The notes under the pieces are model-generated. The model saw only the letters and a program-made list of their open reading frames with translations, searched no databases and was not told where the DNA came from. Of a stretch of DNA of 64,000 bases, positions 2,659-15,676 are shown one piece after another (position 1 is the first letter of the stretch; every line of letters begins with the position of its first letter). The position numbers were made by a program, and so were the translations under genes. This stretch comes from Bryobacterales bacterium (GTDB taxonomy: Bacteria > Acidobacteriota > Terriglobia > Bryobacterales > UBA6623): positions 1 to 64,000 of the forward strand of contig JAJDZN010000031.1 in NCBI GenBank assembly GCA_022824585.1, in the 5' to 3' direction.

Positions 2659-2904
2659 TCACGCGATGCCGTTCTCGTCGAGAGCCTTCTGGACCCGTGA
2701 GGCAGGTATCAGCGGTGTGCCTGGTGGTACGTCGAACGAGGGGAAACGAGATTCCTTCCCCGTTTCGCACATCCGTCGCGTATCGGATCGAAGCGCGTGG
2801 CGGGCCATCTCGGAAAGTACGGCACCGAGGCTCTTGCCCGTCGCCCTAGATTGGCGCAGTGCCTCCCCATAGATGTCGTCATCCAAGGTCACAGTCGTCC
2901 TCAC
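2659..2904 (-). CDS. VapB/CopG-like ribbon-helix-helix antitoxin
   Basis: GTG start at 2904; 81 aa VRTTVTLDDDIYGEALRQSRATGKSLGAVLSEMARHALRS...RFPSFDVPPGTPLIPASRVQKALDENGIA. The 298-aa ORF in the track is an upstream over-extension. Confidence 0.75.
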   Translation of the reverse strand: MRTTVTLDDDIYGEALRQSRATGKSLGAVLSEMARHALRSDTRRMCETGKESRFPSFDVPPGTPLIPASRVQKALDENGIA

Positions 2905-3276
2905 GGGAACCACGATACAGTGGCGCAGGTGCATGGTCAATGGTTCTCGCATTCCCGCACCGCGGGATTGGTAGCGGGCGAAGACACGTGTTCTGCTCTC
3001 CCCTGTACGTCCCGCTCTCGTGGAACGACTCCCCGGCCAGCTGGCCTCTGGGCACTCTCTCCCGCGGGTACGAATCCTCGCCGTAAGCCGCCTCGTGGCG
3101 TCGGACCCGGACGTCTGCAAGCAGTAGCGACTCTCGCCGGCGTCTCGGGAGCCGCTTCGACCGGGTCCGCCACAGGTGCCCGGGAAGCGCCGCATGCCAA
3201 GCGGAAACTCGGAATCCCGCCCGTAGCAGGCGGCTCCTCGACAATCGGGCCCGGCCTCAGTACCATCAACGTCTTG

Positions 3277-4914
3277 ATGCGACGCGTTCAAAGACTCGCC
3301 ACCCTCTCCTGCGCCATCGCGTGTATGGCCGGCGTGCCGGAGGCTCGCGGCAAGCCCAACATCGTGATCATCATGGCCGACGACATGGGCTTCTCGGACA
3401 TCGGCTGCTACGGCGGGGAGATCCGCACGCCAAACGTGGACCGCCTGGCGGAGAACGGACTCCGCTTCACGCAGTTCTACAACGCTGCACGCTGCTGCCC
3501 GACGCGCGCATCGCTCCTCACCGGGCTGTACGCGCACCAGACCGGGATCGGTCACATGACGAGCGAGAACGAGCTACTGCGCTTCGACCTCGGCTATCCG
3601 GGATACCGCGGGTACCTCAACAGAAGCTGCGTGACAATCGCCGAGGCACTGAAGCCGGCTGGCTACAAGACGCTGATGTCCGGCAAGTGGCACGTAGGCA
3701 CGTTCGAGGGGATGTGGCCCGTGGACCGCGGCTTCGACGACTTCTACGGACTCATCCGGGGGGCCTCGAACTTCTTCCGGCCGGCTCCGCGGAAGCTGTT
3801 GGTCCGCAACCGGGAACGCGTGATCCCGGGCGAGGACTACTACACGACCGACGCATTCACCGAGCACTCCATACAGTTCGTTCGGGAGGCGGAGCGGAAC
3901 GACGACCAGCCCTTCTTCCTGTACCTCTCCTACACGGCACCGCACTGGCCGCTGCACGCATGGCCGGAAGATGTCCAGAAGTACCGCGGCAAGTACATGA
4001 TCGGCTGGGACAGGGTCCGCGAGGCCAGGCTCCAGCGCATGCGGTTGATGGGGATCATCGACGACGGCTGGAAGATGACTGTCCGGGATGCCGTGGCGTG
4101 GGAAACCCTCACTCGCGGCAAGAAGGACGAAATGGACCTGCGAATGGCGATCTACGCCGCCCAGGTTGATCGGATGGATCAGAACATCGGCAAGCTACTC
4201 GAGGCCTTGAAGGATTTCGGCGAGCTGGATGACACGCTGGTGTTCTTCCTGTCGGACAACGGCGGCTGCGCCGAGGGGGGCATGCTCGGCCGCGGCCCGC
4301 TCGAGATCCTGACCACCAAGGAAGGCTACAGCCAGTCCTACGGGCAGGCCTGGGCTAACGCCTCCAACACGCCCTTCCGCACGTACAAGCACTGGGTGCA
4401 CGAAGGGGGCATCGCGTCGCCCCTAGTGGTGCACTGGCCCGCGGGGGTGTCCGCGAAGGGCGAATTGCGGGAAGAGCCAACGCACCTGATCGACCTGATG
4501 GCAACGGCCTTGGATGTGGCGAAGGCGGAGTACCCGACTGAATTCGCCGGGAACCGGATCGCGCCGCTCGAGGGCGTCTCCATGGTCCCTGCCTTCGCGG
4601 GTATGCCGCTCGACCGGGAGGCGCTGTACTGGGAGCACGAGGGCAATCGCGCAGTCCGACTCGGCAAGTGGAAGCTCGTCGCGGAGAACCGCGGACCTTG
4701 GGAACTCTACGACATGGACGCAGACCGGACCGAGACCGAGGACGTCATGGCGGCTCACCCGGAGACCGGTCGGCGGATGATCGAGATGTATACGGAGTGG
4801 GCCAAGGACAGGAACGTTCTGCCCGGACGTCCAAGCCGCAAGCCCGGGTACGAGCCGGTCCCGCTTCCTTACCCCGAAACCGCGGAATACGACGCGCCGG
4901 TCACGTCGCCCTGA
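3277..4914 (+). CDS. Arylsulfatase (type I sulfatase)
   Basis: Start MRRVQRLATLSCAIACMAGVPEARG (signal peptide); KPNIVIIMADDMGFSDIGCYGGEIRTPNVDRLA; FGly motif CCPTRASLLTG; GKWHVG. Confidence 0.93.
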   Translation: MRRVQRLATLSCAIACMAGVPEARGKPNIVIIMADDMGFSDIGCYGGEIRTPNVDRLAENGLRFTQFYNAARCCPTRASLLTGLYAHQTGIGHMTSENELLRFDLGYPGYRGYLNRSCVTIAEALKPAGYKTLMSGKWHVGTFEGMWPVDRGFDDFYGLIRGASNFFRPAPRKLLVRNRERVIPGEDYYTTDAFTEHSIQFVREAERNDDQPFFLYLSYTAPHWPLHAWPEDVQKYRGKYMIGWDRVREARLQRMRLMGIIDDGWKMTVRDAVAWETLTRGKKDEMDLRMAIYAAQVDRMDQNIGKLLEALKDFGELDDTLVFFLSDNGGCAEGGMLGRGPLEILTTKEGYSQSYGQAWANASNTPFRTYKHWVHEGGIASPLVVHWPAGVSAKGELREEPTHLIDLMATALDVAKAEYPTEFAGNRIAPLEGVSMVPAFAGMPLDREALYWEHEGNRAVRLGKWKLVAENRGPWELYDMDADRTETEDVMAAHPETGRRMIEMYTEWAKDRNVLPGRPSRKPGYEPVPLPYPETAEYDAPVTSP

Positions 4915-4986: not shown

Positions 4987-7932
4987 TCACTCGGCAGTGA
5001 CCCAGATCGGCGAACTCCACGCGACTTGGCGATCTCGGTCCGACTGCCTGACCCGCACGTAGTAGAAGTCCGCTTCCTCGCCCGGCTTGCCCTTGTCCTG
5101 GTATTCGAAATCGGCTGTCTTGGTGCCCGGGGTCTGCCGGTAGACGCGCTGGTTGTTCTTCACGATCTCGATTTCCGCGAGCTTGTCGGTTCCCTCGACG
5201 TGCACGCGGAACGTGGGCGTGCCGGCGATTGCGACCTCTTCGCCCATCAGGTAGTCTCGACCACCCTCCGCAAGCCGGAAATCCACGATGATGTTGTCGG
5301 TCGCGCCGTATGTGTGCCTGGCCCGGATGGCGTCGACCAATCCGGTACGCGAGTTCTCCTCGGCCAGCAGCATCGAATACGACGTGTGCACGGCTAGGTG
5401 GTCGGAGCTGGCCTGCACTCCCAGCCGGTAGCCCTTGGCCCAAGCCACCGATACCATGCCGTCGGGGCGGTAGCCGCCGAACTGCTTCTTCTTCTCGTCA
5501 GTCGGGGCGGAGCGCCAGCAACCCTCGCATTCGTAGCTGTTGCGGTCGCTCTGGTAGATCTCGACGATCGGCTCGACCTCGGGGTCGTAGTCGGCCCAGT
5601 CGGTGCCCATGTCCGTGCCGGACGTGTGCGCCATGGCGATTCCCTTGTACTTGCGCAGGTATGCGAAGAAGCGCTCGGGTCCTTGGCGGGCATAGTTGGT
5701 CGGCAACGACCACTCGTAGTGCTGGTAATCGAGAATCGGAGCGCCCCGGTACGGGAAGACCACGTTGCGGTGACCGTTGGGATACTTGATCGAGCGCTCG
5801 TACGCGTACAGCGGAACGAATGCCGAGCCGACGCGGAAGATGTCGACGTACTTCTGGCTGCGGAACCAGTCGTATTCGTCCGCCACGCCGAAGTTGTGCT
5901 CGGTGATGGCGAGGAAATCCAGCGCGGCCGGATCGATCGCGTAGCGGTAAGTGTCCTCGGTCGATCCGTCGTTGTAGCCGTCCCAAGAGATCTCCGTGTG
6001 GCGGTGCATGTCGCCGCGGTAGATCTTGTAGCGCTTGCCGCCGACATCGTAGACATAGCTGCGGATGCGCGCCACGTCCTGCTCGTCGTTGGGATGCACG
6101 GGTTCGCTGGCGGCCATTTCGCGGCGCGGCCGGTTGGGCGGCTGCCTCGCTGCCTGTACGGGAGGCAGGGTCAGGCTTGTCAGGCGATGGGACCGCGCCA
6201 CGCCCGGCAGGAATGGAAGCCGCGTGGCGAACACGTCGAGCATCACGTTGACGAAATCGCGGAAACTGCGTCGGTCAGTGGGATAGGCAGCGATCAGGCG
6301 GCCCCCTGAGTCTGCTTCGACTTCGAGGCGCATGTCCGTGCGCCCGGTGGAATATGGCAGCAGCATCATCCGGGACCATTTGTCGCCGTCGTAGTAGGAG
6401 GCGTAGATCTCCCACAGCGCATGGTGCGATGGCGTGCGCCAGTAGACGTTGTGCTGCATGGGGCGCCGGTGGCGGAAGAAGACCCAAACGCGGTTGGAGC
6501 CGTCAACGGCCACTTGCGGGTACTCGTAGAAGTTGTTCCCTGGCCCCGGATCTGGCAGCGAGGATTCCAGGCTTGTCACCGGTGCCAGAAGCTGGCCCCG
6601 GTCGTAGACCGCCATTCGGATGTTGCGGGAGCTGTACAGCCCGGTTGCGTTGGCTTGGATATCGAACGGGTAGCCCCAGTCCTTGCCCCAGTTGATGCCT
6701 GACTCGTGCCAAGCCATCCAGATCCGATCCTGCCGGTCGGCCGCCAGCGTGACGTATGCCTCGAAGCGCCCGGTCCGAGCCACCGGGCGCGGCGCGTCCC
6801 ATTCGTCCCCGGCCTTGCGCGCAAGGTAGACGTCATATCCGGTGGACTCGCTGTACTGGTCCCAGGCCACGTAGACGGTGCCGTTGCTGTCGGTGGCGAT
6901 CGATGGTTCCCAGCAATTTCCAGACGAGGAGGAGCTGACGCGCGAGGCAGCGCTCCAACCGCTGGATGGGTCGTAGCTGCGGTGGAAGATGCCAAAGCGG
7001 TCGCTGCGGGCACCCTGCCAGATGAGATGGATCGTGCCGTCCGGGTCCCGCACCGCTTGGTGGTGGATATCTGGCTGGGCGGCGGTCGTCAAGCGCTCGA
7101 TCGAGCCCCAACCCTCGCCGTCGAAAGCCCGGGCGTAGAGATCCCAGTTGCCTTCGACCTGCTCGGACCACACGATCCAGATCTTGCCTTCGGCGTCCTC
7201 CGCTACCGCGGTGCGATAGACATCCCCGTTCGCAGGGCTGACAGCGTGCGGCCCGCCGGCAGACCCGGTCTGGCCGGGCAGGATCCTGTCAGCGAACACC
7301 CGGTCCGCGCCGTTTGCAAATCCGCTGTAGGCGACCCACACCGAGTCATCCGAAGTGACCTCAAGCGATGCGAAATCGTTGTCCGTCAAGCGCTGGTCCG
7401 CTGGGCCCCGGTCACCGCGGCCGAGCAAGATCCCGATGGGCATCCGCGATACGGATGCTCTCCCGTCCAAGAAGCTTACCGGGCTAGAAGTCGGCAGGTC
7501 TCCGACTCTCACGCTGAAGTCGCCCTGCTCTGTGCTGAATTCCACCTCGGTGGCAGACGAGCCGCGCAGGTACACGTAAAACCTAGGCGTGAGATATGTA
7601 TCCGCCGGCAGGTCCACGAGGATGTCCTCGTCGTGATTCCGGCGGTCGAACGGAAACGCCGGCCGCGTCGCCAGCTCCCATCTCCGCGGCGGGTGGATCA
7701 CGTCGCCGAGCCCCATCTCGTAACCGATCAATTCGACCAACTCCCCGTTGCTTACCTGCAGGTCGCCGTCCCAGCCGGTCTCCGATTTGTCGCCGATGCC
7801 AAAGGTCACCAAGAGCGCATGGTCGGCGTCGACCGGCGGATTGCGGAGGGTCGTCTGCGTAGAAGATTGAGCCCACAGGGCGGTGGCGAGCGCCAGAGAA
7901 ATGGCGAAGATGTGGGCGAAACGAGCGGTCAT
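4987..7932 (-). CDS. Secreted protein with BNR/sialidase-like N-terminal repeats and C-terminal DUF3604 (PHP-like) domain
   Basis: 981 aa, signal peptide; repeated VWVAYSG/IWIVWSEQ/HLIWQGAR/VYVAWDQYSE blocks; C-term KIYRGDMHRHTEISWDGYNDGSTEDTYRYA...DFLAITEHNFG...MAHTSGTDMGTDWADYD. Confidence 0.8.
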   Translation of the reverse strand: MTARFAHIFAISLALATALWAQSSTQTTLRNPPVDADHALLVTFGIGDKSETGWDGDLQVSNGELVELIGYEMGLGDVIHPPRRWELATRPAFPFDRRNHDEDILVDLPADTYLTPRFYVYLRGSSATEVEFSTEQGDFSVRVGDLPTSSPVSFLDGRASVSRMPIGILLGRGDRGPADQRLTDNDFASLEVTSDDSVWVAYSGFANGADRVFADRILPGQTGSAGGPHAVSPANGDVYRTAVAEDAEGKIWIVWSEQVEGNWDLYARAFDGEGWGSIERLTTAAQPDIHHQAVRDPDGTIHLIWQGARSDRFGIFHRSYDPSSGWSAASRVSSSSSGNCWEPSIATDSNGTVYVAWDQYSESTGYDVYLARKAGDEWDAPRPVARTGRFEAYVTLAADRQDRIWMAWHESGINWGKDWGYPFDIQANATGLYSSRNIRMAVYDRGQLLAPVTSLESSLPDPGPGNNFYEYPQVAVDGSNRVWVFFRHRRPMQHNVYWRTPSHHALWEIYASYYDGDKWSRMMLLPYSTGRTDMRLEVEADSGGRLIAAYPTDRRSFRDFVNVMLDVFATRLPFLPGVARSHRLTSLTLPPVQAARQPPNRPRREMAASEPVHPNDEQDVARIRSYVYDVGGKRYKIYRGDMHRHTEISWDGYNDGSTEDTYRYAIDPAALDFLAITEHNFGVADEYDWFRSQKYVDIFRVGSAFVPLYAYERSIKYPNGHRNVVFPYRGAPILDYQHYEWSLPTNYARQGPERFFAYLRKYKGIAMAHTSGTDMGTDWADYDPEVEPIVEIYQSDRNSYECEGCWRSAPTDEKKKQFGGYRPDGMVSVAWAKGYRLGVQASSDHLAVHTSYSMLLAEENSRTGLVDAIRARHTYGATDNIIVDFRLAEGGRDYLMGEEVAIAGTPTFRVHVEGTDKLAEIEIVKNNQRVYRQTPGTKTADFEYQDKGKPGEEADFYYVRVRQSDRDRQVAWSSPIWVTAE

Positions 7933-8062: not shown

Positions 8063-9037
8063 TTACTGGTCCGCCTTCTCCATTGCCCGCGCCCCGCCGA
8101 GGACTAGCTCTACGGCCATGTTGCCCTCGTGGCAGGCGTATTCATACATCACGTACCCGGGGTCGTTGGTCAGCGGCATGGCGATCTTCCACGGCGCTGT
8201 GTAGATCTCTGGATCCTCGATGGTGACCTCGTATTGGATCGTGTCCTCGCTCACCCGCGTGAATCGTTCGACGACCTTGAGCTTTTCCGACTGCGGGATA
8301 CCCTTGATCCGCCGCGACGCGGAATTGGACGCGATCCAGCCCTTGTCGGTATAGTTGCTGACCTCGACGACGAGAGTGTCGCCCTCCCAGCGGCCCCGCG
8401 AATCCCCCATCCAGAGACGGATCTCGTCGCCCACGTGGGCCTTGCCGTCCAGCGGGATAATCCGGGCGTCGTGGATCATCTCGTATAGGATCGCTACGTG
8501 GTCTGGAGTCTGCAGGATCCGGTAAGCGTTGTTGTAGCCGGCAGGAAACATCGAGCCGGGCACGCCACGTGAGATGCAGCGGTCCCAGACGCTCATATGC
8601 ACGTAGGAGTCGCCTTGGTGGGCGCGGTTGTAGTCTCGTCTGGCTTCCGCGGATGGGCGCGTGGGCACGCGGCCGTTGGGAGGATCCACCACCAGCGAAG
8701 TCTGGCGGCTCGAGAGGAACTTGTCACCCGAATCCAGCCAGACTTGGTTGTAGCCACCCACGCTGCCCGGCGGGGAAGTTCCGTCCGAGGCGGCTCGCCG
8801 CTTGGCGACACTGTCCTCGATCGACGTGGCTTCCTCGTCACTGAGGACGGTCTTGTCTGCTTGGTCGGCGGGGCGCTCGAACGGAGTGATGGTCTCGTTC
8901 GTCCACATCCCCTGAAGGTCGGGATGGCCCCAGGGCGTTCGTGGAAGGGTCCAGCCGCTGTCCTCCGCCGAGGCAAGCGGTGCAAGCAGGCAAATTCCCG
9001 CGATGAGAGCCGGCAGGGCGAATGCTCGATTGATCAT
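8063..9037 (-). CDS. Secreted hypothetical protein of the 'PRTPWGxPDLQGxW' family
   Basis: MINRAFALPALIAGICLLAPLASAEDSGWTLPRTPWGHPDLQGMWTNETITPFERP...SRGRWEGDTLVVEVSNYTDKG...YEYACHEGN. Confidence 0.8.
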   Translation of the reverse strand: MINRAFALPALIAGICLLAPLASAEDSGWTLPRTPWGHPDLQGMWTNETITPFERPADQADKTVLSDEEATSIEDSVAKRRAASDGTSPPGSVGGYNQVWLDSGDKFLSSRQTSLVVDPPNGRVPTRPSAEARRDYNRAHQGDSYVHMSVWDRCISRGVPGSMFPAGYNNAYRILQTPDHVAILYEMIHDARIIPLDGKAHVGDEIRLWMGDSRGRWEGDTLVVEVSNYTDKGWIASNSASRRIKGIPQSEKLKVVERFTRVSEDTIQYEVTIEDPEIYTAPWKIAMPLTNDPGYVMYEYACHEGNMAVELVLGGARAMEKADQ

Positions 9038-9130
9038 TTTGAGTCTCCTTCCGATGCGTTTGGTCTCAGCCGCTAGCTGCCACACGAGCCAAGGCTTCGA
9101 AGTCTCTGGTTCTTCGACCGCATTGTCGGG

Positions 9131-9550
9131 TTACCGCCGGTCGTCGTACGGTGCGCCTGTGCCTGACGATCCCGCAAACAACCGCGTCCCGTCCGGCAGC
9201 GTAACGTCGCGGCCGTTCGCCTTGTTCGTTCCGTCAATCGCGCGGTAGCCCTCCACCAGCACCTCCACTCCGGGCTTCACCGAATCCTTGCGCCAGCCCC
9301 TGCGCACCAATGCTCCGGGCGGGCCGGCCTCGATCATCCAATTCTCGGTCGCGCCTTCGTCCGTCGCCACCTCGATGTGCATCCAGGCGTGAGGGTTGAT
9401 CCACTCCATCTTGGTGATTTTGCCGCGCAGGCGGACGGGCTGTTCGGCGTCGAACTCCGAGGAGAAGGCGTGATGCGCCGCGAGCGGGCCGATTGCCAGC
9501 AACGCGGCCAGCCCGATTCCGGCCAGAGCAACGGCTGTCTTGCGTGTCAT
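9131..9550 (-). CDS. DUF6152-like secreted protein
   Basis: 139 aa MTRKTAVALAGIGLAALLAIGPLAAHHAFSSEFDAEQPVRLRGKITKMEWINPHAWMHIEV...; typical AHHAFSSEFD / W.NPH.W motifs. Confidence 0.8.
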   Translation of the reverse strand: MTRKTAVALAGIGLAALLAIGPLAAHHAFSSEFDAEQPVRLRGKITKMEWINPHAWMHIEVATDEGATENWMIEAGPPGALVRRGWRKDSVKPGVEVLVEGYRAIDGTNKANGRDVTLPDGTRLFAGSSGTGAPYDDRR

Positions 9551-9564
9551 TCCTTGTCTCCCCG

Positions 9565-11304
9565 TCATTCGCCGGATTCCGCCGCCCGCTTGTCGCGGGC
9601 GCGCGCCCCGCTGAGGGCGTTGAACATGCCGTAATTGCCCTCGTGGCAGGCGTACTCCACCAGTTCGTACTGCGCGTCGTCTAGGTCGAACGCGAACGTC
9701 GCCGTCCACGGCTGCACCCAGACGGTCGGGTCGTCGATGGTGAATTCGTAGCGCAACTTGGTCGGGCCGATGCGCGTGAACCTTTCCGTCAGGCGGGCCG
9801 CCGCGGTCGCGCCGCGATACCCGCCGCGACCATTGAGACGGCCGGTCTCCACCACGAGCGTGTCGCCCTCCCAGCGGCCCTGAGGATCGCCCAGCCAAGA
9901 AGTGAGCTTTTTGCCCACGGGCTTGCGCGGCTTCGTCGGGATCGCGCGCGTTTCGTGAATCATCTCCTTTTGGATGGCCACGAATCCCGGCCCTTGCACG
10001 ATCTGCAGGCCGTTGTTGTAGATCCCCGGCATCATCAGGCCGGGCAGGCCGCGCGTGATGCAGCGGTGATACATGCTCAGGTCTTCGGGGCCATCGGGCG
10101 TCTTGGCCGCGTTCCTTGCCCGCTCGGCCTGGGCCTCAGCGGCCCTGCGCTTGCCGTCGGCAGTCAGGGCTGGCAACCTGCCGTCCGGCGGGTCCACGAT
10201 CATCGCCACTTGCGTGGACGGCGTCATCTTGTCGTATCCCAGGGTGGTGTCGCGCCACTCGCGCTCGTACCCCCAGATGCTGCCCAGCGTGCCCCGCTCG
10301 CGGCGCGCGGCCGCCTGCTCGGGCGTCAGCGCCTCGACATCCTCCAGATCCTGCGGCCGCTCCAGCGGAATGCCGTGAGCGGAATTCCCCGTCCACACGC
10401 CCTGCATGTCGGGCTCGCCCCATGGCGTGCGCGGCACCGCGTAGGGTTCGGCCGCCTCCTGTGCCGCCGCTGCTTCGAACTGGCTTGCGATACCGGCATA
10501 GCCGGACTCCACGACGGCGACTCTCACGTTGTCCGGGCCGCGCACGAATGCCCGCTTGGCCGGGCTGCGGGCGTTGTCAGGTGTCTCCGGCTCGGACTCG
10601 AAATCCGCTCCGCTGCGGCGCATCTCCGGTCCGGCGCGACCGAGGTCGGGCACGTCGAACGCGATGTGGGCCACGGCGCGGGAACGCGTCGGGGCAGGCT
10701 TGCCGTCGGGGTGCTGGGCAGCGAACAGCCACACGTCGCCGAAGCGTAGCGCGTCCTCGCGGCCCTTGAATTTGGCCGGCCTGCCACCCAGCGCCTTGCG
10801 GTACCAGTCCAGTGTCTCGGCCGGATCGGTTGCGCTCAAATGCACTTGGTGGAAACCCTCGTTTTGCGGGTCTTGCAACACTTCGATGCGCGTGCCCCAA
10901 GGGTCGAACACGAACCCGTGCAGGAACATGCCCGGAAGCTCGCGCAGCGTCGCCCCGTCGTCGAAGCGCTGCAGTCGCACGCCCGAACCTCTCACCCCCA
11001 CCGCTTCCAGCTCGGCCATCTTGGACACGACGTCGGCGTAGGAAAACCCAATGTGATTTATGCCTGTCCCTTGCGAGCTGCCCATCGTGGGCTGGACGGC
11101 GAAGATCAGCTGCACGCCGTCGCAGTCGGCGGTGTCTGGCTGGCTGGCCACAGCCGTGCAGTCAAAGTGCCTGCTATACCAGCGCACGGCTTCCGAAGGG
11201 CTGGCAGCGGTGATTTGGATGTGATGCAATTCCGCCGCGAACGTCGCCGGTGCCGAGACGGCTCCGGCCAAGGCGGCGAAAGCGATTGCGCGCAGGCAGG
11301 TCAT
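9565..11304 (-). CDS. Secreted fusion: two VOC (glyoxalase-like) domains plus 'PRTPWGxPDMQGVW' domain
   Basis: ELHHIQITAASPSEAVRWYSRHFDC...GINHIGFSYADVV...GFVFDPWGTRIEVLQD; HQVHLSATDPAETLDWYRKALGG...; then YAVPRTPWGEPDMQGVWTGNS...QGRWEGDTLVVETGRLNG...VEYACHEGNYGM. Confidence 0.82.
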   Translation of the reverse strand: MTCLRAIAFAALAGAVSAPATFAAELHHIQITAASPSEAVRWYSRHFDCTAVASQPDTADCDGVQLIFAVQPTMGSSQGTGINHIGFSYADVVSKMAELEAVGVRGSGVRLQRFDDGATLRELPGMFLHGFVFDPWGTRIEVLQDPQNEGFHQVHLSATDPAETLDWYRKALGGRPAKFKGREDALRFGDVWLFAAQHPDGKPAPTRSRAVAHIAFDVPDLGRAGPEMRRSGADFESEPETPDNARSPAKRAFVRGPDNVRVAVVESGYAGIASQFEAAAAQEAAEPYAVPRTPWGEPDMQGVWTGNSAHGIPLERPQDLEDVEALTPEQAAARRERGTLGSIWGYEREWRDTTLGYDKMTPSTQVAMIVDPPDGRLPALTADGKRRAAEAQAERARNAAKTPDGPEDLSMYHRCITRGLPGLMMPGIYNNGLQIVQGPGFVAIQKEMIHETRAIPTKPRKPVGKKLTSWLGDPQGRWEGDTLVVETGRLNGRGGYRGATAAARLTERFTRIGPTKLRYEFTIDDPTVWVQPWTATFAFDLDDAQYELVEYACHEGNYGMFNALSGARARDKRAAESGE

Positions 11305-11326
11305 GGTGAAAGAACCTCGTCAGTCC

Positions 11327-12142
11327 TCAACGGGTGGGCTCCCTGCGGAGGTGGCCGTACATCAGATCCTCGGCATACTCGACGCACTTGAACTCCAGCA
11401 CGCGGGCATCCTCTTCCAAGCGCCGGTAGAGCGGGAGACGAATCGTCCAAGGGCGAGAGAAGACCTCGGGGTCGGTCAGAGTGGCCTCGTACATGATGGC
11501 GTGCCGGCCGAGCGGCGTGTAGCGTTCCTCCACTCGCAATGAGGAACTGGAGAAGTTGCCCGCGCGGTCAAGCCATGCCTGGCCGTTGAAGCCTTCCGCT
11601 TCCACGACCAGCGTGTCGCCTTCCCAGCGCCCGTGCGAACGCCCCATCCAGCTGTCCAGCGGCGGCGGCTCTGGCGTCTCTTTGTCCATGTGGATGGTGC
11701 GATTGGCCTCGGCGAAGCCGTACAGGACCATGATCTTGCGGTCGCCTTGAATGATCTGCAATGGGTAGGGCAGGTACGTCGCCCGCGGCACGCCCGGCAG
11801 GAAGCACTTCGCTTCCGGATCTTCGGTCATGCGGTTCTCGAAGTTGTTCTGCCGTTGCGGCAGAGCGCTTTCCAAGTACGGGATCTCGCCGCCGACTACC
11901 ACGCCCTGGCCAGGCGGAACCGCCCCGATCGCTCCGAGATCCGGATGCCCGGGACGGGACGGATGGTCCTCCAGGTTCCAGTGGGCCGTGCCGATGGCCT
12001 GCCACACGCCGTTCAGGTCCGGATGCCCGTCGTAGGCCCTTGGAACGGCATCGTCCTGGGCTGCCACCGGCAGGCAAACGGAGAGCGCCGCCGCCGCCAC
12101 GATGGCAAGGCAGGTCCCGACACCCCGGCTGCGACAATCCAT
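11327..12142 (-). CDS. Secreted hypothetical protein, third divergent paralogue of the PRTPWG family
   Basis: DGHPDLNGVWQAIG...KCFLPGVPRATYLPYPLQIIQGDRKIMVLY...GRSHGRWEGDTLVVEAEGFNGQAWLD...LEFKCVEYAEDLMYGHLR. Confidence 0.75.
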   Translation of the reverse strand: MDCRSRGVGTCLAIVAAAALSVCLPVAAQDDAVPRAYDGHPDLNGVWQAIGTAHWNLEDHPSRPGHPDLGAIGAVPPGQGVVVGGEIPYLESALPQRQNNFENRMTEDPEAKCFLPGVPRATYLPYPLQIIQGDRKIMVLYGFAEANRTIHMDKETPEPPPLDSWMGRSHGRWEGDTLVVEAEGFNGQAWLDRAGNFSSSSLRVEERYTPLGRHAIMYEATLTDPEVFSRPWTIRLPLYRRLEEDARVLEFKCVEYAEDLMYGHLRREPTR

Positions 12143-12364: not shown

Positions 12365-13306
12365 TCACGAAGCGAAGCGTCGCTTGCGCGCCACGTCTAG
12401 AGCCACGGCCAAGATGATGACTGCTCCGATGATCACCTGTTGCCAGTACGGATTGATCCCCAGCAAGTCGCTGCCATTGGAAAGCAGGCCCATGATGAAG
12501 GCTCCGATCAATGTTCCGATCACCGTGCCCTCGCCCCCGGTCAGGCTGCCGCCGCCGATCACCACTGCCGCAATCACTTGCAGCTCGTATGTGACGCCCG
12601 CCGTCGGCTGGCCGGTCATCAGGCGGGACGTCTCGATCATCCCGGCCAAGCCGGTCAGCAATCCGCAGATCGCGTAAATCGCCACCTTGAAGCGCCCCAC
12701 GGGAATCCCGGCATAGATCGCCGCCGCTTCGTTGCTGCCAATCGCGTAGGTATAGCGCCCGAGTTTGGTCGAGTGCAGGACGAAGTGCGCCACGAACACG
12801 CAGGCGACCAGGACTACCAGCACGAACGGCGCCGGGCCGATCGTGCCCTCGCCAAGAAAGCCGTGCTCCTTCGGCAGCCCTACCACCGGCAATCCGCCGG
12901 AAATCACCAACGTGAGACCGCGCACGATTCCCAAAGTGCCCAGGGTCACGATGAACGGCGGGATGCGCAGGCGCGCGATCATCAATCCATTCACACAGCC
13001 CCAAAGCGTGCCGGCCAGGACTCCAGCGACCATCCCGAGCATGACTGAGTCGGTCGAGACCATCGTCATCGTCCCGACCACGCCCGAAAACGCGAGGATC
13101 GACCCTACCGACAGATCAATGCCGCCGGAAACGATAACCAGGGTCATGCCCAGCGCCATGATGTTGATCACGGCGGTCTGGCGAATCACGCTGGAGATGT
13201 TCGTCGTCGTCAGGAAGTACGGCGAGACGATCGACAAGATCACGAACAGCGCGGCCAAGCTGATGAACGGCAGGAATCGCTGGACGACTGAATTCTCTCT
13301 CGGCAT
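12365..13306 (-). CDS. Sugar (ribose-type) ABC transporter permease, RbsC-like
   Basis: 313 aa; MALGMTLVIVSGGIDLSVGSILAFSGV...GLTLVISGGLPVVGLP...YAIGSNEAAAIYAGIPV...GGGSLTGGEGTVIGTLIGAFIMGLLSNG. Confidence 0.92.
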   Translation of the reverse strand: MPRENSVVQRFLPFISLAALFVILSIVSPYFLTTTNISSVIRQTAVINIMALGMTLVIVSGGIDLSVGSILAFSGVVGTMTMVSTDSVMLGMVAGVLAGTLWGCVNGLMIARLRIPPFIVTLGTLGIVRGLTLVISGGLPVVGLPKEHGFLGEGTIGPAPFVLVVLVACVFVAHFVLHSTKLGRYTYAIGSNEAAAIYAGIPVGRFKVAIYAICGLLTGLAGMIETSRLMTGQPTAGVTYELQVIAAVVIGGGSLTGGEGTVIGTLIGAFIMGLLSNGSDLLGINPYWQQVIIGAVIILAVALDVARKRRFAS

Positions 13307-13321
13307 CGCTACTCGCTCTCG

Positions 13322-14773
13322 CTACTGTGTGACCGCGTGATGCATGATTTCCTGCTGCGTCGTCTCGCGCGGCAGTTCCGCCACTAGCTCGCCCCCTCGC
13401 ATGACCAAGATCCGGTCGGCGACCTGCAGCAGTTCCGGCAGCTCCGAACTGACCATCAAGATCGCCTTGCCCTGTTTTGCCAGCTCGTCCATCAAGGCGA
13501 ATACCTCGGCCTTCGCGCCCACGTCGATGCCGCGGGTCGGCTCGTCGAACAACACGATGTCCGTATCTCGGAACATCCACTTTGCGATCACGATCTTCTG
13601 CTGGTTTCCGCCGCTCAACTCCGTGGCCTTCTGCTCCACGGAGTCGGCCTGCATCTGGAGCCTTTCGCGCAAGCGCTCGGCAACGTTCCTCTCCTTGGAG
13701 ACCTGTACTACCTCGGCCGTGCACAGTGCGTCCAAGTTCGCTAGCGTGATGTTGGTGCGAATCGAGAGGTCGATGGCCAGGCCCGTGCGCTGGCGATCTT
13801 CTGTCACAAGCGCGATCCCCGCCGCTACGGCATCGTTCGGGGACTGGACATCCACTGGCTGACCGTTGACGATGATGGCGCCGGATTCCGCGGGCGTGAT
13901 GCCGAAGATCGTTTCGCACATCTCGGTTCGGCCTGCCCCGATCAGCCCGGCAACGCCGACGATCTCGCCGGCCCGCAACTCGAACTGTGCACCCGGCAGG
14001 CTCACCTTCAATCGCGTCTCGCCCGGAGATACCTTGCCGCGTTGCATGGACGCGGAGATGTCGCGCCCAACCATGTGGTGCACGATTTCGGCCGTGGTGA
14101 TTTCGGCGGCAGGGCCGCTATGGATCGTCCTGCCATCACGCAGGATCGTCACGCGGTCAGCGATTTCCTCGAGTTCGACTAGGCGGTGCGTGATGTAAAT
14201 GATCCCGATGCCCTTCTCGCGCAGGGCGTGTACCGTCCGAAAGACCTCGGAAGCCTCCGCATCTGAGAGCGACGAAGTCGGCTCGTCAAATATCAGAAGA
14301 GATGACTTGCCGTGCAGGGCGCGGCAGATCTCGACGATTTGCTTTTGGGCGGGGCTCAGCGTCTCGACTTTCCAGTCTCCTTTGACGGGGAAGTGATGGG
14401 CTTGGAGGATCTCGTCCGCGGCCTCGATCATGCCGCGCCGGTCCAAGCGAATGCCGCTCATGCGCTCGCGGCCGAGGAAGATGTTCTGAGCGACCGTCAA
14501 GTGGGGCGCCAGCAGCGACTCTTGGTGGACCATGTGGATGCCCACACGATGCGCCGCGGAGGGCTCGGCGAAATCGACGCTTTCCCCCTTCCAGCGCATG
14601 TCGCCGCCATCGCGGCGCTGCATGCCGGCCACGATCTTCATCAAGGTCGACTTGCCCGCCCCGTTCTCTCCGACTAGGGCATGCACCTGGCCGGAATCGA
14701 CGCGCAGCGTGCCGTCGCGTAGCGCATGCACCCCGCCGAAGCTCTTGCGGATCGACGAAAGCTCCAGAAGCAT
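13322..14773 (-). CDS. Sugar ABC transporter ATP-binding protein (RbsA-like, two ABC domains)
   Basis: MLLELSSIRKSFGGVHALRDGTLRVDSGQVHALVGENGAGKSTLMK...LSPAQKQIVEICRAL...ELSGGNQQKIVIAKWMFRDTDIVLFDEPTRGIDVGAKAEV. Confidence 0.93.
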   Translation of the reverse strand: MLLELSSIRKSFGGVHALRDGTLRVDSGQVHALVGENGAGKSTLMKIVAGMQRRDGGDMRWKGESVDFAEPSAAHRVGIHMVHQESLLAPHLTVAQNIFLGRERMSGIRLDRRGMIEAADEILQAHHFPVKGDWKVETLSPAQKQIVEICRALHGKSSLLIFDEPTSSLSDAEASEVFRTVHALREKGIGIIYITHRLVELEEIADRVTILRDGRTIHSGPAAEITTAEIVHHMVGRDISASMQRGKVSPGETRLKVSLPGAQFELRAGEIVGVAGLIGAGRTEMCETIFGITPAESGAIIVNGQPVDVQSPNDAVAAGIALVTEDRQRTGLAIDLSIRTNITLANLDALCTAEVVQVSKERNVAERLRERLQMQADSVEQKATELSGGNQQKIVIAKWMFRDTDIVLFDEPTRGIDVGAKAEVFALMDELAKQGKAILMVSSELPELLQVADRILVMRGGELVAELPRETTQQEIMHHAVTQ

Positions 14774-14935
14774 GACACTGCCGGAGCCAGCTGCCGGCAA
14801 AAAACCAAGCGTAGCACAGCAAGTCGCGACCGTTGTCTCGGCTCAGTTGTGCCATTCGCAGGACCCATTGCGGCTGTATGCTGCCCGGCAGAACCGGTCA
14901 GACTGGCCGGGGGCCCGCCATGCCCGACACGGCCG

Positions 14936-15676
14936 TCAGTTCTTGAAGCGGACGCCTGTGCTGTGTGTGCCGATTGGCATTTCGTCCCACGTCCGGCCGT
15001 CCAACACCCGTCCAGTGCGCTTCTTGAACACGCCGCCCCATTGCTTGAAGAAGAACGGCACTTGCTGGCAGAGGCATCTGTCGCGAATTTCCCGCACCCA
15101 GTCAGCCTCCATGGGCCGGGCACCCGGGCCAGACTCGCCGCCGGCGATCACCCAGTCCATGTCAGTCAGATCCAGGGAGGAGAGCGGGCCGAGCAGCGGT
15201 TCAAGCGACAGGAACTTCGTCGCGGCCCCTGTTGCCCGCAGGCGCTCGACTCGCCCTAGCCATGCAGCGCTCTCGACGCTGACTCCCAGCCAGATGTTGG
15301 GCGACCAATCGAGAGAGCCACTCATCGCGACGGCCCGGTGGGGCCGCTTGGTCAGAACTTGGAAGGTGTGCCTAGAGGCGCGGTTCATTACCGCGAAGAC
15401 AGACTGTATGAAATCTGTCGGAACCGCATCGTGAAACAGGTCCGACATCGAGTTGACGAAGACGAGGCGCGGCTTGGACCACTTGAGAGGCTCATCGAGT
15501 GTCGTTGGGTGGATAGCGACTTCGAAGCCATTCTGATACTTCGCAGCGCCCATCGCCTGCAGCCGCTTCGCCATCCGTTCGGCGTAGCAGTGCTTGCAGC
15601 CCGGACTGATCTTTGAGCACCCCGTGACGGGATTCCAAGTGGTCTCGGTCCATTCGATCTGCGACGCGGACGACAT
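14936..15676 (-). CDS. DUF5131 / phage Gp37-Gp68 family (three-Cys-motif) protein
   Basis: [41 protein letters not shown]...[23 protein letters not shown]...[27 protein letters not shown]...PFFFKQWGG. Confidence 0.92.

Follow-up and report, generated by a model that had tools for sequence, protein, structure and literature searches.

A conserved pairing of secreted core proteins with DUF6152 in Acidobacteriota, and the periplasmic module it may encode

A four-gene cassette in a Bryobacterales genome

The stretch of DNA considered here, hereafter the window, comprises 64,000 nucleotides of a Bryobacterales bacterium (GenBank assembly GCA_022824585.1, contig JAJDZN010000031.1, positions 1 to 64,000) and contains a compact cassette of four consecutive open reading frames (ORFs) on the minus strand, designated A, B, C and D. 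Genes A, B and D share a core domain that has no family name and gene C encodes a DUF6152 protein; genomes gain and lose the core family and DUF6152 jointly, and the two are located side by side. A preliminary description of this DNA, made from the sequence alone, had reported four minus-strand genes with short gaps and signal peptides throughout. The ORF coordinates bear out both the orientation and the intergenic gaps of 22, 14 and 93 nucleotides, and a Sec-type signal peptide can indeed be recognized by eye at the start of all four proteins.

Gene A (11327..12142) encodes a protein of 271 residues with a core of the short type (S). Gene B (9565..11304; 579 residues) combines a signal peptide, two VOC domains and a core of the long type (L). 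Its residues ~27-263 are of the glyoxalase/VOC kind (PF00903, 2.9e-17; 63.6 bits against a cut-off of 20.6) and fall into two stretches, namely residues ~27-105 (10990..11226, PF13669) and residues ~151-263 (10516..10854, PF00903), followed by the core from residue ~273 (9568..10488). Gene C (9131..9550; 139 residues) matches DUF6152 (PF19649, 3.2e-31; 107.8 bits against a gathering cut-off of 27), as the preliminary description had assumed. Gene D (8063..9037; 324 residues), again with a long-type core, starts at an ATG located after an AAGGAG ribosome-binding site, and a longer ORF opening with GTG extends to 9085.

The core of gene D is 43% identical to that of gene B and 30% identical to gene A, with the GRWEGDTLVVE block being invariant in all three. 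The idea of three paralogues with a common core thus holds as far as the core itself is concerned, but gene B is a VOC fusion, and gene A, in which KCVEYAE is present and the CHEGN motif absent, represents a distinct short subfamily. The window genome contains ~9 core copies. Since three other contigs also bear core genes, and two more core-core-DUF6152 sets are found on one of them, the cassette is not a one-off of this genome.

Co-occurrence and linkage of the core family and DUF6152

The preliminary description had interpreted the cassette as a periplasmic system, not yet characterised, in which the parts act in concert, and had made this depend on whether the core co-occurs with DUF6152. 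Each family was searched separately in three genome samples, one drawn from the phylum (60 genomes), one from another class (50) and, as an out-of-sample test, one from the order to which the window belongs (61). The same genomes hold both families in every case (3 of 60, 12 of 50 and 31 of 61, respectively). In the union of the samples, 166 Acidobacteriota genomes, 44 carry both families, 122 carry neither and none carries only one, although these counts are non-independent owing to shared ancestry. Presence and absence of the two families are also concordant inside three genera (g80, g91 and g92).

Both families are not only found in the same genomes but also close to each other. A core gene is located within ~1.4 kb at 49 of the 58 loci fetched through DUF6152 alone, compared with 0.6-9% expected by chance from core density, and the nearest core gene is co-directional with DUF6152 in 45 of the 49 linked loci. 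The commonest gene order is S core, L core, DUF6152, of which the window cassette is one form, its middle core carrying fused VOC domains. On the strength of co-occurrence and linkage, chance clustering of the core with DUF6152 was rejected, and both support the proposal of a system with parts that belong together.

VOC proteins, which had been expected as neighbourhood partners, do not play that role in general. VOC-core fusions recur in some cassettes (Bryobacterales, genomes G105 and G068), and apart from these fusions one stand-alone VOC neighbour was seen, so that VOC was rejected as a general cassette partner. In relation to the VOC (glyoxalase/dioxygenase) superfamily, therefore, the likeness is confined to cassettes such as that of gene B, with its two fused domains, whereas the remaining core proteins are without VOC.

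Diversity and predicted structure of the core family

The core of genes A and D matches no family in Pfam or NCBIfam, and gene B gives only VOC-type matches. When 113 core relatives were compared with Pfam, only weak and scattered matches appeared, the best at 0.0091, and sequence searches of PDB chains (phmmer and profile hmmsearch) returned no match to the core; likewise, no sequence homology with lipocalins or fatty acid-binding proteins (FABPs) was found in the Pfam and PDB searches. A characterised family covering the core, which the preliminary description had named as a finding that would refute its proposal, was thus found in none of Pfam, NCBIfam and PDB.

At least 564 core relatives came from a single scan of genome contigs; the loci kept from it are mainly those of Acidobacteriota, and a few carry the label of Gammaproteobacteria or of other groups. 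Copy number can be very high: individually counted genomes hold 81, at least 107 and at least 84 copies, and one genome of 6.2 Mb holds at least 150 (all 150 scored candidates matched, 321 having been proposed). Long-type cores sampled within one genome share a median mutual identity of 41%, which indicates that most of them are not recent copies. In another genome of the window's order (G133, contig C60, positions 75116-81945), ~9 core genes, matching as short type, form a tandem array within 7 kb. An expansion to dozens or more than 100 envelope-protein copies per genome, with varied neighbouring enzymes, recalls that of SusC/SusD in polysaccharide degraders; however, the core proteins are unrelated to these, and no SusC/SusD partner is present among the recurrent neighbours.

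The two core types differ in their conserved residues. Long-type cores contain an invariant ACHEGN motif (8120..8137 in gene D), in which A277, C278, H279, E280 and N282 are invariant and G281 nearly so among 113 aligned core domains, together with a nearly invariant His upstream. Short-type cores are without the equivalents of the long-type H165, H279 and N282 and keep both Cys, and the two conserved Cys probably form a disulphide.

The core of gene D was modelled with AlphaFold 2 (AF2) on a 113-sequence alignment (predicted local distance difference test, pLDDT, 91.4; predicted TM-score, pTM, 0.89). The best Foldseek matches of the model are SAHS, CRABP, FABP, UnaG and nitrophorin, all of them calycin barrels, the top match having a probability of 1.0, an E-value of 5.6e-4 and a TM-score of 0.24 when normalised by the query and of 0.46 when normalised by the target (~0.25 and near 0.5, respectively, for the calycin matches in general). 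The model thus provides the lead that the core may be a secreted, calycin-like (lipocalin/FABP-type) meander β-barrel. Proteins of the calycin type usually have small hydrophobic ligands, and enzymes are known among them. The predicted barrel topology is like that of FABP/CRABP, SAHS, lipocalins and nitrophorins, but the core differs from these in having no sequence relationship with them, in its additional N-terminal region of ~140 residues (PRTPWG.PDLQG.W), in the probable disulphide and the invariant ACHEGN, and in being secreted and massively duplicated.

DUF6152 as a candidate N-terminal-histidine metalloprotein

All distinct DUF6152 members examined have an invariant His-His, directly before which the hydrophobic signal sequence ends, and an invariant internal Asn-Pro-His (NPH). 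An A-x-A|HH site is present in 73 of 76 DUF6152 sequences, the misses being mostly pattern mis-hits, compared with His at position +1 in 2 of 532 other secreted proteins of the same loci, which served as a control. In gene C, the His1-His2 codons at the predicted mature N-terminus (LAA|HH, an A-x-A-type cleavage site) lie at 9470..9475, and the 100% conserved His29 (mature numbering) of the NPH motif is encoded at 9389..9391. Mature DUF6152 is therefore predicted to begin with His-His once the signal peptide has been removed, and DUF6152 can be regarded as a candidate N-terminal-histidine metalloprotein.

A His residue at the N-terminus naturally chelates metals. It is also the hallmark of copper histidine-brace proteins (PMC10952591), and families with such a residue have been identified by signal strapping, including DUF4198, found beside TonB receptors, and the anglerases, found fused to HupE/UreJ; DUF6152 is not among the families in that work (PMC12537917). 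With respect to its sequence, DUF6152 resembles the histidine-brace and N-terminal-His metalloproteins (lytic polysaccharide monooxygenases, LPMOs, CopC, DUF4198, DUF6702 and anglerases; PMC12537917, PMC10952591) in that the predicted signal peptide ends before an invariant His and a second, internal His is invariant. It differs from them in starting with His-His and in its predicted fold, which is an oligonucleotide/oligosaccharide-binding (OB) fold (AF2 pLDDT 81.9, with Foldseek matches to SSB, Rim1 and LysRS OB domains) rather than an Ig-like or LPMO sandwich. A CopC/LPMO-like fold is not supported by this model, as CopC is absent from its 50 listed Foldseek matches. A profile match of DUF6152 to ribosomal protein uL6 (6e-4), spanning a beta-rich stretch, was set aside as chance.

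The DUF6644 pair, cytochromes and other recurrent neighbours

The gene neighbourhoods reveal a second unit that, like the VOC fusion of gene B, goes beyond the preliminary description. DUF6644 (PF20349) is a membrane protein with about four helices, as judged by eye, and a nearly invariant His. Of 57 DUF6644 genes, 51 occur in same-strand tandem pairs. DUF6152 is found within 3 kb at 17 of 27 DUF6644 loci and a cytochrome-like CxxCH protein within the same distance at 13 of 27, CxxCH being present in every cytochrome-like match. Within one class, 11 of the 12 core/DUF6152-positive genomes have DUF6644 above the cut-off, as does a single negative genome, its match being marginal. A small periplasmic His protein beside a helical membrane protein is reminiscent of the CopC-CopD and DUF4198-HupE pairs; nevertheless, DUF6644 differs from their membrane partners in forming a Pfam family of its own, in its tandem arrangement, in its frequent association with a c-type cytochrome and in being partnered with core barrels. 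At one locus (L237, genome G028, contig C15), several DUF6152 and DUF6644 genes lie together with no core gene in the stretch, possibly a separate use of the DUF6152/DUF6644 unit.

Beta-propeller proteins of the pyrroloquinoline quinone (PQQ) type are the commonest named neighbours, and the neighbour tallies show no single dominant enzyme family beyond these and DUF6644. Alpha/beta hydrolases, carboxylesterases, beta-lactamase-like enzymes, SMP-30 and PQQ enzymes are among the genes nearby.

The module is also present outside Acidobacteriota, on plasmids. A tblastn search of 72,556 plasmid records located the core in eight sphingomonad records and DUF6152, with a sphingomonad sequence as query, in the same eight. 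DUF6152 and the core are adjacent in all four sphingomonad loci read, TonB receptors adjoin the module in three sphingomonad loci, and a DUF6644 pair stands beside DUF6152 and the core in Novosphingobium and Sphingobium. The pairs concerned are those of Novosphingobium humi (locus L224, 7822-9315), accompanied by a cytochrome gene, and of Sphingobium TomTYG65 (locus L222, 12399-13417), where monooxygenase, ferredoxin-like and peroxiredoxin genes come before the pair and a TonB receptor after it. Tomatine catabolism was considered as a role, given that Sphingobium TomTYG65 carries the module on a plasmid; since the text of the tomatine paper names none of these genes, the candidate was set aside and no substrate is claimed.

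Proposed function and alternatives

The cassette would represent one copy of a conserved and often multiplied periplasmic set, made up of a short core, a long core and DUF6152, and its proteins may physically act together, as the genomic evidence suggests. The reading that we prefer, to which we assign a probability of roughly 0.4, is that of a periplasmic redox- or metal-linked module, with the core barrels binding or converting small molecules, DUF6152 providing a metal site, and DUF6644 together with the cytochrome supplying an electron link. On the predicted structure, the core barrels may bind small hydrophobic molecules, and the long type, with its invariant ACHEGN, would probably convert them, so that expansion to 100 or more copies might reflect many different substrates. 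Since DUF6152 combines a predicted His-His start with the invariant NPH, it would bind a transition metal, copper being the likeliest. To judge from the neighbourhood, the cassette could be connected to the respiratory chain through the DUF6644 pair and a cytochrome c'-like monohaem protein, in which case the substrate step would be redox or redox-coupled. A bolder version appears unlikely to us: DUF6152 as a new OB-fold copper protein with an N-terminal His which, along with a c'-type cytochrome and the DUF6644 pair, would drive a hyper-expanded set of secreted calycin-barrel oxidoreductases. Together they would form a hitherto unrecognised periplasmic redox platform, whose subunits, each specific for its substrate, would number up to 150 or more in a genome.

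Several observations weigh against the redox- or metal-linked module. Long-type cores stand alone in 96 of 216 counted cases, so that DUF6152 may serve many cores in trans or may not be needed by all of them. The calycin match spans under half of the D core protein and its TM-scores are partial, which makes "calycin-like" a lead and not a statement of family membership. In the DUF6152 model, beta-strand 1 (residues 8-26) is flanked by His1/His2 and His29, which therefore may not share one site, and a classical His1-His29 brace stays a candidate only. The match to cytochrome c' (PF01322) is weak, with 1 of 10 proteins above the 30-bit cut-off (best 1.1e-6, usually ~0.01). In the window genome, the DUF6644 pair does not adjoin the cassette but lies on another contig (C156), where it is found with a cytochrome gene. 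Finally, the presence of TonB receptors and esterases in the vicinity would also be compatible with mere uptake and hydrolysis.

This last point leads to non-redox catabolism or uptake of hydrophobic natural products, with the cores as lipocalin-like carriers or as hydrolases or isomerases, and DUF6644 and the cytochrome as mere neighbours. The calycin-like predicted fold, the SusC/D-like copy expansion, the VOC fusions and the hydrolase, esterase, beta-lactamase-like, SMP-30 and PQQ enzyme neighbours all suit such a role, but DUF6644 is nearly confined to positive genomes and adjoins DUF6152 in two phyla, and the invariant His-His of DUF6152 would be hard to explain; on balance, we consider it somewhat unlikely. 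A further alternative is acquisition or homeostasis of a metal (copper or nickel), where DUF6152 would bind the metal like CopC, DUF4198 or DUF6702, the DUF6644 pair would be a CopD/HupE-like membrane partner, TonB receptors would import a metal complex and the cores would bind metal-carrying ligands. Both the resemblance of the N-terminal His-His to published N-terminal-His metalloproteins (PMC12537917) and the TonB receptors of the three sphingomonad loci speak in its favour; nonetheless, up to 150 or more cores and dozens of DUF6152 per genome exceed the needs of homeostasis, the neighbour tallies contain no metal regulator or P-type ATPase among recurrent neighbours, and the predicted OB-fold is unlike the fold of CopC, all of which makes a metal system unlikely. 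That the genes serve unrelated functions and owe their proximity to chance or shared mobility is highly improbable: many core genes do stand alone and several sphingomonad copies are on plasmids, but the absence of any discordant genome among 166, the preferred order and strand, and the conservation across phyla argue strongly the other way.

DUF6152 and DUF6644 exist as Pfam names only, and no mention of either, or of the GRWEGDTL motif, was found in the literature searched. The combined system matches no described kind found, although its chemistry could prove familiar. Where a genome of 4-6 Mb holds from 80 to more than 150 copies of one gene family, that family is a major part of the biology of its host, and yet it is without a family model. 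As the core is strictly paired with DUF6152, and DUF6644 and the cytochrome are associated more broadly, three orphan families become one testable system, which comes with a metal-binding hypothesis for DUF6152 and is carried by cultivable hosts, namely Novosphingobium, Sphingobium and Croceibacterium. Should the redox interpretation be true, it would account for a large part of the secreted "hypothetical" proteins in those Acidobacteriota that carry the system.

Other genes around the cassette

Several genes flank the cassette in the window. On the minus strand, positions 4987-7932 encode a secreted protein of 981 residues with BNR/propeller repeats and a C-terminal region of the CehA/McbA metallohydrolase type (NF038032, below cut-off), and a gene of similar size comes after the cassette in a close relative (L019). 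A sulfatase-like protein, named by eye from its sequence, is encoded on the plus strand (2797-4914), and a near-identical one is found near the cassette in another close relative (L020). Directly upstream of the cassette lie genes for a sugar-type ATP-binding cassette (ABC) permease and a double ATPase (12365-14800, minus strand), with a same-sized pair in relative L019. Positions 14936-15676 (minus strand) encode a protein of 246 residues, which we take to resemble phage Gp37/68 (DUF5131)-type proteins.

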